In this document: positions 42,309 through 48,554 of the stretch, piece after piece
How positions within the stretch are numbered: position 1 is the first letter of the stretch
Layout of the letters: every line of letters begins with the position of its first letter
Assembly: GCF_001597735.1 (NCBI RefSeq)
Contig: NZ_LUTS01000006.1
Coordinates: 124,001-188,000, forward strand
Direction of reading: 5' to 3'
Source of the DNA: Neptuniibacter pectenicola
Lineage (GTDB): Bacteria; Pseudomonadota; Gammaproteobacteria; Pseudomonadales; Balneatricaceae
Length of the DNA stretch: 64,000 nucleotides
Program-made: the position numbers and the translations under genes
The notes under the pieces: model-generated
Seen by the model: the letters and a program-made list of their open reading frames with translations, nothing else
Databases searched by the model: none
What the model was told of the DNA's origin: nothing

Positions 42309-42499
42309 CGAAAAATACACCCATTTAAGTGTTTGAATGGCTACTACTTGCAAGTAGGGTCATTTTATACTGCTTACGATGACGTGATGTGACGAATGGG
42401 TATGGGCTATATATACAGCGATTGGCTATGTTACTTACGCGGTCAGTTTTGCTGATTTATGAGTCTAAGTTACTACATTTTAAAAAGTTGTATGCCATG

Positions 42500-42527
42500 G
42501 GTGCAGGTTTCTCCTGCACCTTTTTTT
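42500..42527 (+). terminator. Intrinsic terminator after the MDR oxidoreductase
   Basis: GGTGCAGG (42500-42507), loop TTTCT, CCTGCACC (42513-42520) and seven T. It points rightward and lies 9 bases from the convergent rhodanese gene end. Confidence 0.88.
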
Positions 42528-42535
42528 ATTCTAAA

Positions 42536-43096
42536 TTAGCGATCAATACGGTAGATCTTGTCTGGGTTAGGTTTAGCGCTCCAAGGTAAGCCAGAGTTCT
42601 GCCAGCCGTTTTGGATACGGAAACCGGTTTTTTTACCTGCTTTGGCGCTGTCACCTTGGAAGCCGTTAATCATGTAGGTTGCATTAGGGAAACCGTGTTT
42701 GCGTAGAAATTCTGCGCTTGGTAGGCCTCGTTCACTACCAGAGCGACACATAGTGATCACGGTCGCTTGTTTGTCTAAGCCGCGTTCAAGCAGGGCTTGT
42801 TCAACTTGAGTGGCGAAATCTGGATTTTGGTAAAGGCGAAAGCGGTTTTTCTTAGCATCCCATTGGCTACGATCTACCATTAGGTAGGGGATATTTAGAT
42901 CCACCTCATCGGTAAAGCCAATAAACATGATTTCAATCGGGTCACGTACATCAATAAACAGCACCTCATCCGGTTTTTGTTGTAACAGTTCATAGGTGGC
43001 TTTGGGGCTGATACCACTAATATCGCTTGCCTGAGCGCTACTCAGTGGCAGAGACATGATTGCACTGAGGAATAGCGGGGTTAGATATTTCTTCAT
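42536..43096 (-). CDS. Periplasmic rhodanese-like sulfurtransferase
   Basis: About 186 residues. A signal peptide (MKKYLTPLFLSAIMSLPLSS, cleavage near AQA) is followed by one rhodanese domain: VLFIDVRDPIEIMFIGFTDE and the active loop TMCRSGSERG with the catalytic Cys. The product therefore moves sulfane sulfur in the periplasm. AGAGGA lies 8 bases before ATG 43096; the frame is open 19 codons further. It is divergent from the membrane-protein gene at 43339, with a palindrome shared with the MBL operon between them. Confidence 0.88.
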   Translation of the reverse strand: MKKYLTPLFLSAIMSLPLSSAQASDISGISPKATYELLQQKPDEVLFIDVRDPIEIMFIGFTDEVDLNIPYLMVDRSQWDAKKNRFRLYQNPDFATQVEQALLERGLDKQATVITMCRSGSERGLPSAEFLRKHGFPNATYMINGFQGDSAKAGKKTGFRIQNGWQNSGLPWSAKPNPDKIYRIDR

Positions 43097-43182
43097 CGGA
43101 TGATCCTCTCTTTTAAAAACGGAAGCGGTGGGGTGACAGCTATCTGCTAGCATTAAGGCAAATAGTATGTAATAACATGTTT

Positions 43183-43204
43183 AATATTAGTATTTTCTAA
43201 TATA
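43183..43204. promoter_or_regulatory. Palindromic operator, sulfur module site 1
   Basis: AATATTAG, six bases, CTAATATA: an inverted repeat in the divergent rhodanese / membrane-protein gap. It has the same arms and spacing as the site at 44622. The pattern recalls BigR/SqrR/YgaV-type (ArsR-family) persulfide-sensor operators. Confidence 0.65.
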
Positions 43205-43338
43205 AAATACTTTATTACAATAGCGTTGTGACTTTTTAGTCTACTTCTGCTGAGAATGTGATTTAGCGCTACGCTTATGAGTCGAGTGCAATCCTCCGCT
43301 TTAGCCTGACTCAATTATCAAAGATAAGGAGATTTCTG

Positions 43339-44550
43339 ATGTTAAGACGAGACCCTGAGCAGCCTTGGCATCCCAGTTATTGGTTGGCGGCACTCGGTGC
43401 TGGTGGACTTTCTATCTCATTTTTTATGTACCTGATGTGGTTGGTACCTCATCAGGGTTTTCCTATGCCGACTTGGCAGCATCTATCGGCCTTACTGACT
43501 GGTACTACGCCATTATCTACTGGAGTCCGCCCGCTGGCTATTTTTGCGACCCTTTTTATGTTGTTGCTGGCGTTGTTGCACTTTACGCTGCTGATCTGGA
43601 ATATTCGTGAATATCGTGTGGCGCGCAATACAGAAGCCTACCAGCGATTGTTGGGTTCTCCCAGCGAAGTGCAGTTGATGACTCAGCCGCTGACATTTGC
43701 GATGACTGTTAATGTTTGTTTTGCACTCGGTGCGCTCTGTGTGCCCGGTTTATGGTCTATTGTGGAATATCTTTTTCCTCTCGCCTTGCTGGCGTTTGCT
43801 GCTATAGGCGTTTGGTCACTCAAACTCTATGGCCGTTATCTGAGCCGGATGCTTGTTAGTGGTGGGTATCGCCATGAAGAGCATAATCACCTCTCTCCGT
43901 TGATGGCTGTTTTTACCTTTTCTATGTTGTCTGTTGGTTTTGCCGCACCGGCGGCTATGTCGCACGTAGCGTTTGTGGCGGCGCTGGCAGCAACTTTATC
44001 GATTTTGTTTCTGGTCATTGCTGTGGTCTCCGGTGTATTGATTTTAATATCGGGCCTGCAAGCGATGTTGCAGTATGGTTTACAAAAACAGGCCACGCCG
44101 AGCATCTGGATGTTGATCCCGATTATGACGTTGCTTGGGATTGAGTGGGTGAGGATGCAACATGGCTTGAGCCATCATTTTTCAACCCCTGTTGAGCAGG
44201 GCAGGTTGTTTGTTGTTTTGACAGCTATTTTCATGTTGCAGCTGGGCATTATGCTGCTGGGGTATCGTGTTATGCAGCTAAATGGTTATTTGACGGATCA
44301 CCTTCTAGGTGACCAGCGTAACCCCGTTAGTTTTGGCTTGATCTGCCCTGGTGTCGCGTTGTTTGTGATGGGTATGTTCTGGTGGCATCTAGTGTGGGTA
44401 CAAGGTGGTATCGTCACTGCGTTTGGCGCGGTTTACTGGTTGGGGATTGCTGGACTTGCGGTGGTACAGTTTTTAACGCTAGGGGCATTGCTACGCTTGA
44501 GTCATCGTTTGTTGCGACACAAACCCGTTGAGATTGCGTTAATGGAGTAA
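43339..44550 (+). CDS. Multi-pass membrane protein of the sulfur module (TsoY-like)
   Basis: 403 residues with about ten transmembrane helices and almost no soluble part. The start WHPSYWLAALGAGGLSISFF and the helix-rich layout recall, from memory, the family named TsoY ((seleno)protein); no in-frame TGA is present, and Cys occurs at positions such as NVCFALGALCVPG and LICPG. Its place between a periplasmic rhodanese and a persulfide-dioxygenase-like gene suggests a role in handling or moving a sulfur compound. AAGGAG lies 7 bases before ATG 43339. The family name is uncertain; the membrane call is not. Confidence 0.6.
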   Translation: MLRRDPEQPWHPSYWLAALGAGGLSISFFMYLMWLVPHQGFPMPTWQHLSALLTGTTPLSTGVRPLAIFATLFMLLLALLHFTLLIWNIREYRVARNTEAYQRLLGSPSEVQLMTQPLTFAMTVNVCFALGALCVPGLWSIVEYLFPLALLAFAAIGVWSLKLYGRYLSRMLVSGGYRHEEHNHLSPLMAVFTFSMLSVGFAAPAAMSHVAFVAALAATLSILFLVIAVVSGVLILISGLQAMLQYGLQKQATPSIWMLIPIMTLLGIEWVRMQHGLSHHFSTPVEQGRLFVVLTAIFMLQLGIMLLGYRVMQLNGYLTDHLLGDQRNPVSFGLICPGVALFVMGMFWWHLVWVQGGIVTAFGAVYWLGIAGLAVVQFLTLGALLRLSHRLLRHKPVEIALME

Positions 44551-44621
44551 ATACGCTGTGGCTATTAAGCTCATAGTTAAATTTAAATGAGGTAAAGCAG
44601 ACAGGCTACGAAATTTCATTT

Positions 44622-44643
44622 AATATTAGACTTATCTAATATT
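44622..44643. promoter_or_regulatory. Palindromic operator, sulfur module site 2
   Basis: AATATTAGA, CTTA, TCTAATATT: a perfect 9-bp inverted repeat ending 8 bases before the AGGAG of the MBL gene. It shares AATATTAG-N6-CTAATAT with 43183-43204. Confidence 0.7.
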
Positions 44644-44662
44644 GTGTGGCAGGAGATATACC

Positions 44663-45553
44663 ATGAGTGAAGTACACGCTTCCCCGTGCGTGCCTCAGGT
44701 GAAAGCCTTTTTTGATGAACCAACCAACACGTTCAGTTATGTCGTACAGGACCCTGAGTCTACTGCATGTGCCATTATCGATTCGGTGCTGGATTTTGAT
44801 TATGCCAGTGGCTGTACGGATGTGCGCTCGGCTGACGAGATCATTGCTTATGTGCGTGATAAGGATCTGTCGGTTGAGTGGATTTTGGAAACCCATGTTC
44901 ATGCTGATCACCTATCAGCAGCACCTTATTTACATCAAACACTGGGTGGAAAAACGGGTATCGGAGCTATGATTACCCTCGTGCAGGATACTTTTGGCAA
45001 GGCATTTAATGCCGATACTGAGTTTGCGCGTGACGGTAGTCAGTTTGATCATCTGTTTGAGGAAGGCGATCGTTTTAATATTGGTAAACTTGAAGGCTAT
45101 GTGTTGCATACACCAGGGCATACTCCGGCCTGTTTAACTTATGTGATCGGAAATGCGGCGTTTGTGGGCGATACATTATTTATGCCGGATTACGGTACTG
45201 CCCGTTGTGATTTTCCCGGTGGTGATGCCCGTACGCTGTTTCGCTCGATTCAAAAAGTACTTAGTTTGCCGGGGGAAACCCGAATATTCCTCTGCCATGA
45301 CTATAAAGCGCCGGAACGGGAGGAGTACTGCCATGAAACGACGGTGGCAGAACAGCGTAAGCACAATGTACATGTGCATGAAGGCATTACCGAGGCTGAG
45401 TTTGTACGCATGCGCACCGAGCGTGATGCGACATTGGCTATGCCGACTCTGATTCTGCCATCGGTTCAGGTCAATATGCGAGCGGGTGAGATGCCGCCAG
45501 CAGAAGACAATGGCCAAGTGTACCTAAAAGTACCGATCAACCTATTTAAATAA
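44663..45553 (+). CDS. MBL-fold persulfide-dioxygenase-like protein (Blh type)
   Basis: About 296 residues of the metallo-beta-lactamase fold. The metal motif HVHADHLS is near residue 77, then HTPGHTPACLTY, VGDTLFMPDYGTARCDFPGG and FLCHDYKAPER. The GTARCDFPGG and CHDY segments are those of ETHE1/persulfide dioxygenase and of the Blh protein of BigR operons. Such enzymes oxidise glutathione persulfide to sulfite using iron. AGGAG seven bases before ATG 44663 decides the start; the frame is open into the operator upstream. It is followed by a DUF442 gene 13 bases away, the two halves that are fused in Blh of Agrobacterium and Xylella. Confidence 0.9.
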   Translation: MSEVHASPCVPQVKAFFDEPTNTFSYVVQDPESTACAIIDSVLDFDYASGCTDVRSADEIIAYVRDKDLSVEWILETHVHADHLSAAPYLHQTLGGKTGIGAMITLVQDTFGKAFNADTEFARDGSQFDHLFEEGDRFNIGKLEGYVLHTPGHTPACLTYVIGNAAFVGDTLFMPDYGTARCDFPGGDARTLFRSIQKVLSLPGETRIFLCHDYKAPEREEYCHETTVAEQRKHNVHVHEGITEAEFVRMRTERDATLAMPTLILPSVQVNMRAGEMPPAEDNGQVYLKVPINLFK

Positions 45554-45566
45554 GACCGAGGAATTT

Positions 45567-45989
45567 ATGGATATTAAAGAACTTGAACCGGGCTTTTCTA
45601 TCAGCCATGCGATCTATCCCAGTGATATTGAAGAGCTGAAAACCCTTGGCTTTCGCGCGATTATCTGTCATCGCCAGCCAGGTGAAGCGGACGACCATAT
45701 CGACGACTCCCTGCTACGCCAAGCAGCAGAAGCGGCGGGAATTGAATGGGTCGAGATTCCTGTGACACCGGGTGAATATACAACGGAAGCGATTGAGGCC
45801 TTTGGTGCCGCAATTGATAGGTTGCCGACGCCTATTTTGGGTTTTTGCCGCAGTGGTCGCCGCGCGGTATCCCTTTGGGTTCACAATCAAGTGCAGCAGG
45901 AAAGCTGTGATTTAGGGCAGTTGTTGCAGGCCGCCCATGCTGCTGGTCATGATTTGCATGCAGAGAAGGATAGCTTTATTAAAGGCTGA
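45567..45989 (+). CDS. DUF442 / TIGR01244 sulfurtransferase (Blh N-terminal type)
   Basis: 140 residues of the protein-tyrosine-phosphatase-like DUF442 fold: FSISHAIYPSDIEELKTLGF, AIICHRQPGEAD and the active loop GFCRSGRRAVSLW with the catalytic Cys. In Blh proteins this domain is fused to an MBL domain and acts as a sulfurtransferase; here it is a separate gene directly after the MBL gene. GAGGA precedes ATG 45567. SulP follows 25 bases later. Confidence 0.9.
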   Translation: MDIKELEPGFSISHAIYPSDIEELKTLGFRAIICHRQPGEADDHIDDSLLRQAAEAAGIEWVEIPVTPGEYTTEAIEAFGAAIDRLPTPILGFCRSGRRAVSLWVHNQVQQESCDLGQLLQAAHAAGHDLHAEKDSFIKG

Positions 45990-46014: not shown

Positions 46015-47733
46015 GTGAATATTAAAAAATACCTGCCGATTCTGGAGTGGTTGCCGAGCTATCGTTTGGCGATCTTCAATCAGGATCTGATGGCGGCTAT
46101 GATTGTGACAGTGATGTTGGTTCCTCAGTCATTGGCTTACGCTATGCTGGCGGGTCTGCCCCCTGAAGTGGGGCTGTATGCCAGTATTGCCCCCTTACTG
46201 ATTTATGCGGTGTTAGGTACAAGCAGTGCTTTATCGGTAGGACCGGTTGCCGTTATTGCTTTAATGACGGCGGCTACTGCAGGCACGATAGTGTCACCGG
46301 ACGGTGACGCATACCTGACCACCGTTATTTTGCTGACGTTTATGTCCGGTGTCATGCTAACATTGATGGGGTTATTTCGACTGGGCTTTCTTGCCAACTT
46401 TCTCAGTCATCCAGTGATTTCCGGTTTTATAACGGCTTCCGCTATCATCATCGCTGTGGGTCAGTTTAAACATCTGTTGGGGGTTTCGGTGAGTGGTCAT
46501 AACCTGCCTGACCTGTTGCTCGCGTTGGTTAAGGCGCTGCCGGATCTGAATCTTATGACGCTACTGATGGGTAGCGGTACGTTGTTGTTTTTATATGCAA
46601 GTCGGCGTTGGCTAGGGCCGTTTTTGAATCAATTAGGTTTTAGCCAAGTCATCGCCAATAGTGTGGGGCGCTTGTCTCCGATCTTGGCGGTTGTTGTGAC
46701 TACGGCCATCGCCGCTTATTTCACATTAAACGAACAGGGCGTTGCGGTTGTGGGGAGTGTGCCAGCGGGCTTACCACCTTTGGCGATGCCTTCGTCCGAT
46801 ATCAGCCTTTGGAAGCAGCTTTGGGTTGGGGCGCTGTTGATCAGTATTGTCGGTTTTGTGGAGTCGGTATCTGTGGGGCAGACATTGGCTGCAAAACGTC
46901 GTGAGCGTATCGATCCAGATCAGGAGTTAATCGGCCTTGGTTGTGCCAACCTTGGTGCGGCCGTTAGTACGGGTATGCCGGTAACGGGCGGCTTTTCTCG
47001 CTCGGTGGTGAATTTTGATGCTGGCGCACGCACTCCTGCAGCGGGCGCTTTTACCGCCTTAGGTATTTTGGTGGTTATTCTTTGGTTAACGCCTCTGTTG
47101 CAGACATTGCCTATCTCAACCTTAGCGGCGACGATCATTATTGCCGTGCTTTCTTTAATTGATATCCACGCAATCAAGCATACGTGGCGTTATTCCAAGG
47201 CTGACTTTTCGGCGATGCTGCTAACCGTTGTGATCACCCTGCTGCAAGGGGTCGAAGCAGGTATTCTTTCTGGTGTGGGTTTATCACTCGCGTTACATAT
47301 TTGCCGTACCAGTCGGCCACATACGGCGGTCGTAGGGCGAGTTGCCGGTAGTGAACACTTTCGTAATATCGAGAGACATACGGTGGAGACCTGCCCGAAC
47401 GTGCTGATTATTCGGGTTGATGAAAGTCTTTATTTTGCCAACGCCCGTTATTTGGAGGATCAGATCCAGGCGCTGGTGAGTCAAAGTCCAGAACTTCAGC
47501 ATTTAGTGATCAGTTGTCAGGCGGTCAATCTAATCGATGCGTCAGCACTGGATAGCTTAGAGTCGATCAATGCTCGCTTGAAGGATACTGGGATTAAACT
47601 ACATTTGGCTGAAGTTAAGGGGCCGGTGATGGATCGCTTGGAATGGGTTGAGTTTCCTGAGCAGCTGAGTGGTGAAATATTTATCAGTACGTTTGCCGCT
47701 TGGCAGCGGCTGAAGCGCGGTGACAAAGATTAA
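46015..47733 (+). CDS. SulP-family sulfate/anion permease
   Basis: 572 residues with about 12 to 14 transmembrane segments. The SulP signature (MLVPQSLAYAMLAGLPPEVG LYA region) is near residues 35-60, and GMPVTGGFSRSVVN is in the core. A C-terminal STAS domain (about 440-560) carries ILIIRVDESLYFANARYLED and VNLIDASALDSLE. SulP proteins carry sulfate, sulfite-like anions or bicarbonate. Its position after two sulfane-sulfur enzymes points to export or uptake of an oxidised sulfur anion. The start is GTG 46015 with AAGGGG 5 bases upstream. Confidence 0.93.
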   Translation: MNIKKYLPILEWLPSYRLAIFNQDLMAAMIVTVMLVPQSLAYAMLAGLPPEVGLYASIAPLLIYAVLGTSSALSVGPVAVIALMTAATAGTIVSPDGDAYLTTVILLTFMSGVMLTLMGLFRLGFLANFLSHPVISGFITASAIIIAVGQFKHLLGVSVSGHNLPDLLLALVKALPDLNLMTLLMGSGTLLFLYASRRWLGPFLNQLGFSQVIANSVGRLSPILAVVVTTAIAAYFTLNEQGVAVVGSVPAGLPPLAMPSSDISLWKQLWVGALLISIVGFVESVSVGQTLAAKRRERIDPDQELIGLGCANLGAAVSTGMPVTGGFSRSVVNFDAGARTPAAGAFTALGILVVILWLTPLLQTLPISTLAATIIIAVLSLIDIHAIKHTWRYSKADFSAMLLTVVITLLQGVEAGILSGVGLSLALHICRTSRPHTAVVGRVAGSEHFRNIERHTVETCPNVLIIRVDESLYFANARYLEDQIQALVSQSPELQHLVISCQAVNLIDASALDSLESINARLKDTGIKLHLAEVKGPVMDRLEWVEFPEQLSGEIFISTFAAWQRLKRGDKD

Positions 47734-47900: not shown

Positions 47901-48554
47901 ATGGCACTTCGAATCAATGACATCGTACCTAACCTCGATTTGAAAACCGATCTAGGCGACTTCAAATTACATGATTTCATCGGCGACAGCTGGGCTATTT
48001 TATTCAGCCACCCGAAAGACTTCACACCGGTTTGTACAACTGAGTTTGGCGCAGTGGCTCAGCTAGCCGCTGAATGGGAAAAGCGCGGCACTAAAGTGAT
48101 CGGCCTGTCGGTAGACGGCGTTGATGAGCACGTTAAGTGGAAAGCGGATATTGAGAAATACTCTGGCGCACCGGCTAAATTCCCAATCATTGCGGATGAC
48201 GATATGGCGGTTGCCAAAGCATTAGATATGTTACCAGCGGATGCTTATCTGCCGGATGGTCGCACCGCTGCTGACTCTGCTAGTGTGCGAGTGGTCTTTA
48301 TCTTCAGCCCAGACAAAAAACTGCAGCTGTCGATGACCTACCCAATGTCGGTTGGCCGTAACTTTGCTGAAGTTCTGCGTGCGTTGGATGCATTGCAAGC
48401 AACCGCTGGAGCGCCTATTGCAACGCCTGCTAACTGGGAAGTAGGGCAAGATGTTATTGTTGGTTTGTCGTTAAATGATGACGAGGCGAAAGCTAAGTTT
48501 GGTGATGTTGAGATAAAATTGCCTTACCTGCGTACGACTAAACAGCCATCATAA
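47901..48554 (+). CDS. 1-Cys peroxiredoxin (Prx6 family)
   Basis: Peroxidase of 217 residues with thioredoxin fold. The peroxidatic Cys45 lies in HPKDFTPVCTTEFGAVAQLA. It is the only Cys in the protein, so this is a 1-Cys enzyme needing an external thiol. LDMLPADAYLPDG, VRVVFIFSPDKKLQLSMTYP and the C-terminal WEVGQDVIVGLSL extension are Prx6-specific. It reduces peroxides, and possibly persulfide-derived species given the context. GGAG precedes ATG 47901. It follows the SulP gene by 167 bases and may have its own promoter; a terminator is at 48581. Confidence 0.93.
   Translation: MALRINDIVPNLDLKTDLGDFKLHDFIGDSWAILFSHPKDFTPVCTTEFGAVAQLAAEWEKRGTKVIGLSVDGVDEHVKWKADIEKYSGAPAKFPIIADDDMAVAKALDMLPADAYLPDGRTAADSASVRVVFIFSPDKKLQLSMTYPMSVGRNFAEVLRALDALQATAGAPIATPANWEVGQDVIVGLSLNDDEAKAKFGDVEIKLPYLRTTKQPS

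Follow-up and report, generated by a model that had tools for sequence, protein, structure and literature searches.

Two copies of one palindrome precede sulfur genes in the 64,000-nucleotide stretch of Neptuniibacter pectenicola analysed here (hereafter the window; contig NZ_LUTS01000006.1, positions 124,001 to 188,000). One occupies the gap that separates a rhodanese gene from the divergent tsoY, which encodes a TsoY-family membrane protein; the other stands ahead of an operon for an MBL-fold persulfide-dioxygenase-like protein, a DUF442 sulfur transferase and a SulP permease. In all likelihood, these palindromes are operators of a dimeric ArsR-type repressor of the SqrR/BigR/HlyU type, encoded on another contig (C1:190876-191208), which would be released by persulfide and would control a sulfur regulon dispersed over the genome. 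Binding, repression and persulfide as the signal are what I infer from the sequence comparisons set out below; on this footing, sulfur-detoxification genes very probably respond to reactive sulfur as one set, under the control of a single two-cysteine regulator. A preliminary description of the same DNA had read the shared palindrome as the mark of a sulfane-sulfur regulon under a BigR-type repressor, and overall that interpretation is supported.

The palindromes and the promoter of the MBL operon

43183..43204: palindrome 1, operator-like, AATATTAG-TATTTT-CTAATATA, in the divergent gap between the rhodanese gene and tsoY
44622..44643: palindrome 2, operator-like, AATATTAG-ACTTAT-CTAATATT, 5' of the MBL-DUF442-SulP operon
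44598..44603, forward strand: predicted -35 of the MBL operon, CAGACA, read by eye (four of six positions to TTGACA) and not reported by the consensus scan
44621..44626, forward strand: predicted -10 of the MBL operon, TAATAT (four of six positions to TATAAT)

Both palindromes lie where the preliminary description had located them, and both match ATATTAG-N6-CTAATAT perfectly. The 14 inner arm bases of palindrome 1 are paired, its outermost pair being A/A, and palindrome 2 is a perfect 22-bp dyad (a dyad search gives 9-nt arms with 4 nt between) that ends 19 bp before the ATG of the MBL gene (44663). The N6 spacers of the two are unlike (TATTTT vs ACTTAT). The window contains no other match at one mismatch or fewer, and 100 dinucleotide shuffles of it yield a mean of 0.01 at that level, none reaching two.

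Palindrome 1 is kept in the close Neptuniibacter relatives L024 and L025. In six aligned gaps between tsoY and the MBL gene, from Neptuniibacter and Amphritea, TTTAA(T/C)ATTAG-N6-CTAATATT is kept and the N6 varies; the arms of palindrome 2 are retained in all six, L024 having one changed arm base. A sigma-70 scan of 42450-44700 returned two promoter-like sites against 3.7 in shuffles and was uninformative, so the MBL promoter was read from conservation: the GACA of the predicted -35 is invariant in the six gaps, and the predicted -10, 17 bp downstream, runs into the left arm of palindrome 2. The palindrome reads as covering the predicted -10 and start point of the MBL operon.

Two further observations concern the surroundings of these sites. 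An imperfect dyad with palindrome 1 at its core extends over 43168-43219 (arms of 23 nt that are 83% complementary, with TGTAATAA/TTATTACA as the outer parts) and is largely kept in two close relatives, the outermost positions tested being little conserved in pooled sites. At 44573-44587, 34 bp upstream of palindrome 2, ATAGTTAAATTTAAA is identical in all six aligned gaps; an UP element or a binding site for another factor are possible roles.

The regulator

The assembly (3.63 Mb, 203 contigs) holds five ArsR-type genes according to a PF01022 search, one of which is the candidate regulator:

C1:190876-191208: ArsR-type regulator, 110 amino acids (PF01022, 43.9 bits, cut-off 22)

As a query, this protein finds only itself in the genome at E ≤ 1e-10, and no regulator of the SqrR/BigR/HlyU type lies beside the two window operons, the MBL operon being on contig C160. 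The preliminary description had noted the absence of a local regulator gene and had looked to a two-cysteine BigR/SqrR/YgaV-type homologue acting from elsewhere; one such gene exists, and both cysteines are present. The best solved relatives of the C1 regulator are HlyU, the entries 13ct and 6o8k-6o8o (which I take to be SqrR), NolR, YgaV and BigR. HlyU is the nearest (E 2.4e-27, 52 of 95 aligned residues identical), and both cysteines align with those of HlyU, their placement in helix 2 and helix 5 coming from the literature. The protein thus combines the ArsR winged helix with the cysteine pair characteristic of the reactive-sulfur-sensing ArsR cluster (SqrR/BigR/HlyU/YgaV). It scores 91.5 bits with the BigR equivalog NF040642, whose cut-off is 155, and is therefore termed SqrR/BigR/HlyU-type rather than filed as BigR; the BigR of the preliminary description holds for the kind of repressor and not for its name, HlyU being closest.

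The recognition stretch LSQSALSQHL is identical in the regulator, HlyU and NolR, and the chain presumed to be SqrR (13ct/6o8l) reads QAAVSQQL. Both cysteines and LSQSALSQHLA occur in all 30 regulator loci examined in this genome and its family, where 58 genomes have a match. Nine of the 13 HlyU residues whose mutation abolishes DNA binding (PMC4330345, in excerpt) are identical in the C1 regulator. Both window palindromes satisfy on both strands the consensus operator given for NolR, (A/T)TTAG-N9-A(T/A) (PMC12445080 and PMC8960804, accessible parts). Finally, a one-mismatch palindrome, GTATTAG-TATTAA-CTAATAT, lies between the regulator gene and a divergent operon for an MMPL/RND protein, a LolA-like protein and one further protein.

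The regulon in this genome and its conservation

At one mismatch or fewer, the genome contains seven palindrome sites against one for the reversed control pattern; at two or fewer there are 36 against 17, so that this looser level is about half chance. The seven comprise the two in the window, the gap between the regulator and the RND gene, and sites at a YgaP-like membrane protein with a divergent Usp gene, a SLAC1/TDT channel, a Tll0287-like protein and a solute-binding protein. For six of them, one or more other genomes also have a site beside that gene. The shared operator of the preliminary description therefore stands, and its extent has to be revised, the predicted regulon being larger than two operons.

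Among weaker sites, orthologues decide. An OsmC gene has a site with up to two mismatches, ending 18-83 bp upstream, in 13 of 15 genomes; in the remaining two, the corresponding position shows 3 and 4 mismatches. An SQR-like protein (203 bits with the selenoprotein-subtype model of type III SQR, cut-off 525) has a 2-mismatch site about 340 bp upstream of its gene in this genome, and its orthologues in four relatives have sites 137-330 bp away. A sulfhydrogenase operon, considered as a member for a 2-mismatch site 73 bp upstream, was rejected as probable chance, none of nine other orthologues having one (1/10 in total; 15 genomes); it serves as a negative control beside OsmC. Sites at ClpB (C127), in the AceE region (C138) and at the solute-binding protein (C149) show no recurring gene family and are likewise probably due to chance.

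Across 60 genomes of the family, 164 forward sites at one mismatch or fewer face 30 control sites. Matches to the C1 regulator at E ≤ 1e-10 occur in 58 of these genomes (remote only in six); of 115 genomes sampled across the order, 59 have one, four of these 59 being members of the family. The enrichment drops overall as the regulator becomes more distant: 99 vs 10 sites in the 20 family genomes with a regulator at E ≤ 1e-50, 41 vs 4 in the 25 between 1e-50 and 1e-42, 2 vs 5 in the seven between 1e-42 and 1e-30, and 22 vs 11 in the eight with a remote regulator or none. Outside the family, the counts are 70 vs 15 with a regulator at E ≤ 1e-22 (39 genomes), 7 vs 7 with a weaker one (16 genomes), and 32 vs 20 with none (56 genomes; 17 vs 15 without the outlier G168).

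In sequence terms, the strongest link between this regulator family and the palindrome is provided by sites at the regulator gene itself outside the family. In nine of 55 regulator-bearing genomes, each from another family (G104, G115, G072, G066, G065, G124, G162, G089 and G076), a site with at most one mismatch precedes the matched part of the regulator gene by 12-108 bp (a second G167 match is not among the matches listed). With roughly 0.4 control sites per genome (42 in 111 genomes), almost none would be expected there. Within the family, 20 of 30 regulator loci have such a site within about 1 kb (22 at two mismatches or fewer), and the distance is 22-368 bp where the regulator adjoins it (11 of 17 genomes).

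The genes adjoining the sites were counted for 92 sites in 17 genomes, namely this one (window site 2, whose locus was cut, being assigned to MBL by hand) and 16 of the 45 relatives with a site at one mismatch or fewer. These 16 contributed 80 regions and were chosen mostly for having several sites; G015, G012, G026, G052, G035, G058, single-site genomes and others were left out, and G045 contributed one of its five sites. The regulator, its RND partner or a sulfur-type gene adjoins 56 of the 92 sites and 22 of the 26 perfect ones, and six sites lie inside open reading frames (ORFs). The recurring neighbours are RND (13 of 17 genomes), the regulator (11), Usp (11), TDT/SLAC1 (10), YgaP-TM (10), MBL (6), TsoY (6), rhodanese (4) and SQR-like genes (4). 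A small Sel1-repeat protein (cluster c7; PF08238 in L144) also adjoins the palindrome in five of the 17 genomes (G022, G028, G039, G048 and G054), in three of them opposite a cysteine-synthase-like pyridoxal-phosphate enzyme (PF00291 in L167).

Upstream of tsoY, a site with up to two mismatches occurs within 350 bp in 19 of 40 loci, shuffles giving an expectation of 0.10 (two of the 42 loci, L039 and L064, are partial matches and were left out). These loci include Marinomonas and the alphaproteobacterial Pseudovibrio, and several have two sites. Some loci and genomes coincide (L025/G029, L026/G028, L031/G054 and L045/G041), so the neighbour count and the tsoY test are not fully independent. 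In Marinobacterium iners (L028), whose MBL-DUF442-SulP operon is 5.8 kb away from tsoY, the palindrome accompanies the MBL operon and not tsoY, a point in favour of the proposed operator. Conservation at orthologous operons, on which the preliminary description had staked its proposal, is found at the MBL operon, at many tsoY operons and beside the regulator gene.

Mechanism and alternative explanations

Since the site at the MBL operon overlaps the predicted -10 and start, repression relieved by persulfide is the likely mechanism. The reduced repressor dimer would bind ATTAG-N6-CTAAT and block transcription, covering at the MBL operon the predicted -10 and the start point. A rise in persulfides would then create a sulfur bridge between the helix 2 and helix 5 cysteines, upon which the repressor would leave the DNA. 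Derepression would affect the SQR-like oxidoreductase, the periplasmic rhodanese, the DUF442 sulfur transferase, the MBL persulfide dioxygenase, OsmC and the YgaP-type membrane protein as well as the exporters or channels SulP, SLAC1/TDT and TsoY, together with the RND system beside the regulator, whereby oxidation, transfer and export of sulfane sulfur would be induced at once.

Several observations weigh against this picture. At up to three mismatches to the 21-mer first reported, the window is not significantly enriched (6 matches against a shuffle mean of 3.00, with 9 of 100 shuffles reaching 6), so that the evidence in the window consists of the two perfect copies. No clear promoter appears in the rhodanese/tsoY gap, where the sole scan match is at background level. 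Of the two ORFs flanking the site beside the regulator, the RND one is 28 bp away and that of the regulator 368 bp, a distance at which self-control is not evident in this genome. The HlyU operator O1 satisfies the NolR consensus on one strand only, as do 8% of shuffles. In the family, 14 of 60 genomes have no site at one mismatch or fewer, among them G006, G014, G032, G033, G046 and G047 with a good regulator, and G038, whose regulator is remote (49% identity), has 8 sites vs 0 for the control. No site with up to two mismatches precedes tsoY in 21 of 40 loci, including Marinobacterium L027 and L028. Finally, for 36 of the 92 sites no neighbouring gene belongs to the sulfur set, which was itself compiled after the labels had been seen, so that some sites reflect chance or further targets.

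Among the alternatives, the regulator and its operators could be right and the direction of control wrong, the protein activating or doing both. In Vibrio, HlyU, which is the nearest solved relative, acts as an activator (PMC4330345, in excerpt), and at SQR-like genes the distance between site and ORF start is 137-340 bp. At the MBL operon, however, there is overlap of the operator with the predicted -10 and start, and the OsmC, YgaP-TM, RND and TDT sites are mostly within about 100 bp of the ORF, as repression predicts; activation is accordingly an unlikely reading, if one to be kept in view.

It is improbable, too, that some other thiol-reactive cue (peroxide, heme or an electrophile, for example) is the signal. 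The sulfur chemistry is deduced from two cysteines, and heme binding of SqrR/YgaV is discussed in the accessible part of PMC9774250; yet the target genes encode persulfide enzymes and sulfur transferases, and HlyU reacts with persulfides, not with H2O2 or GSSG (PMC10509353, in part).

A different transcription factor with an AT-rich site might instead bind the palindromes. The genome has four further ArsR-type genes, and binding by the C1 regulator is what I infer; besides G038, the genome G168, with no regulator match, has 15 sites against 5 for the control. Composition, another factor or a diverged regulator are candidate causes of the excess in these two genomes. Nevertheless, the sites upstream of the regulator gene in nine other families, the drop in enrichment with regulator distance, and the agreement of helix and half-site with NolR and, less fully, HlyU all point to the C1 regulator, and the two of the four other ArsR genes that were read do not carry its recognition stretch. 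A different factor is thus quite improbable. That two unrelated AT-rich dyads merely look alike, for which the lack of enrichment at three mismatches could be cited, can be dismissed given the expectation at one mismatch, the conserved arms around a variable core and the conservation across the family.

Genes of the window

42536..43096, reverse strand: rhodanese (PF00581, 26.4 bits, cut-off 22.2); an alternative upstream start at 43153 is possible
43339..44550, forward strand: tsoY, TsoY-family membrane protein, cysteine form (NF047644, 466 bits, cut-off 150)
44663..45553, forward strand: MBL-fold persulfide-dioxygenase-like protein (PF00753; NF040641, 397.3 bits, below the 625-bit cut-off)
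45567..45989, forward strand: DUF442 sulfur transferase (PF04273/TIGR01244; CRSGRR loop by eye)
46015..47733, forward strand: SulP family permease with STAS domain (TIGR00815, 461 bits, cut-off 380)

The gene content of the preliminary description (rhodanese, persulfide-dioxygenase-like MBL protein, DUF442 and SulP) is borne out by Pfam and NCBIfam matches, and its divergent membrane protein is TsoY. The rhodanese has a signal-peptide-like N terminus and a CRSGSER loop (both by eye) and is probably a periplasmic sulfur transferase. The MBL protein matches the C-terminal half of the bifunctional Blh (positions 141-423 of the NF040641 profile) and the DUF442 protein its N-terminal part (70.6 bits); neither score reaches 625, and the two matches indicate that the fused Blh is here split into two genes in reversed order. 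Downstream of the SulP gene lies a peroxiredoxin gene (47901-48554; AhpC-TSA with a 1-Cys-type C-terminal domain) that has no palindrome of its own at one mismatch or fewer within the window; the same gene follows SulP in L024, L025, L026, L027, L031 and L045.

TsoY, a membrane protein with a predicted channel fold

TsoY is patchily distributed (12 of 60 family genomes), and the window protein is 97% identical to those of Neptuniibacter marinus and Neptuniibacter sp. 1_MG-2023. It is a clear member of the TsoY family NF047644 and falls below the cut-off of the selenoprotein form, NF047643 (71.8 vs 250 bits), having cysteine instead of selenocysteine (Sec). All 31 aligned TsoY sequences share this residue, Cys336 in ICPGV. 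The invariant C-P-G-V fits the UxxV motif listed for selenoprotein TsoY (PMC13188914, in excerpt), with cysteine where relatives carry selenocysteine. An AlphaFold2 model built from 31 sequences (mean pLDDT 89.5) places Cys336 near the start of helix 329-354. The 22 best PDB matches returned by Foldseek are all of TehA/SLAC1 type (prob 1.00), at a best E of 1.6e-3 (TMt 0.74) and with none at or below 0.001. Structural alignment with TehA (3m71) gives Z 28.7 with a root-mean-square deviation of 3.1 over 303 aligned residues, and plant chains of the same type reach Z 30.3, against 14.0 or less for unrelated helical proteins. TsoY is thus predicted to have the SLAC1/TehA fold. It has no Pfam match up to E 10, PF03595 (the SLAC1/TDT family) included, and hhalign to the TDT proteins of the same regulon gives a probability of 0.3%; since the sequence methods used revealed no homology to SLAC1, the claim is limited to the fold.

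Three observations concern individual tsoY loci. In L034, L036 and L041, 21-28 bp separate tsoY from the end of a preceding, ordinary SLAC1/TDT-type frame in the same orientation, apparently placing two SLAC1-fold proteins in one operon. The tsoY match of Pseudovibrio axinellae (L060) has one in-frame stop, downstream of the Cys336 region judging by open-frame length. In G003 (locus L198), a tandem pair of palindromes is flanked by tsoY and, divergent from it, a cytochrome bd oxidase subunit I-like gene, whose product scores 22.2 bits with PF01654, below the cut-off of 26.2, and has a weak C-terminal cytochrome c match.

As a tentative and rather doubtful proposal, TsoY, known hitherto only as a (seleno)protein family, could be a divergent anion channel or exporter of SLAC1 fold that conducts sulfite, thiosulfate or (per)sulfide, gated by the species it passes, or reacting with it, through sulfur modification of the invariant Cys/Sec. 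Its induction would depend on the palindrome and the HlyU/SqrR-type repressor, and mixed complexes might arise with the regulon's ordinary SLAC1/TDT protein, whose gene adjoins tsoY in L034, L036 and L041. If so, the Sec-containing relatives would be selenoprotein ion channels. Among the papers listed by a literature search that covered few subscription journals or preprints, none concerned TsoY as a channel or the palindrome regulon.

Significance and comparison with known systems

The type of switch is already known; the gene set predicted here is larger and extends to the poorly understood TsoY. An observation of two sites becomes a predicted regulon of marine Gammaproteobacteria in which the operator is defined, the regulator is one protein and the targets recur, and the recognition stretch of an ArsR subgroup is linked to its half-site. 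OsmC, the YgaP-type protein, the RND system, the SLAC1-type channel and TsoY are placed under predicted reactive-sulfur control. The TsoY family thereby gains a physiological context and, from its predicted channel fold and Cys/Sec position, a specific hypothesis.

The targets recall those of BigR. A persulfide dioxygenase under a two-cysteine ArsR-type repressor is found, together with a sulfur transferase, in the bigR operon with Blh of Xylella and Agrobacterium (PMC5823870, in part) and, with yeeE-yedE-pdo2, in Acinetobacter (PMC7315123, in part). Here, by contrast, the regulator gene is not linked to the operon and its product scores too low for the BigR equivalog; the regulon is dispersed, and the transferase and the dioxygenase are encoded by two genes, in reversed order and accompanied by SulP. 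NolR of rhizobia shares the recognition stretch and the operator consensus, but is described, in the accessible part of PMC8960804, as being without cysteines and as regulating nodulation genes.

SqrR of Rhodobacter capsulatus and YgaV of Escherichia coli share the ArsR fold and two sensor cysteines, and YgaV regulates the operon that encodes both itself and the rhodanese YgaP (PMC9774250, in excerpt). The SqrR operator given in the same source, ATTC-N8-GAAT, has the dyad geometry of ATTA-N8-TAAT in the window, with the same N8 spacing and another sequence: the half-site here is ATTAG, not ATTC, the recognition stretch contains SALSQHL, and the regulator lies beside a divergent RND operon. HlyU of Vibrio, the closest solved relative, has the same cysteine pair and nine of the 13 DNA-contact residues; it activates hemolysin, whereas here the targets are sulfur genes and the position of the operator suggests repression.

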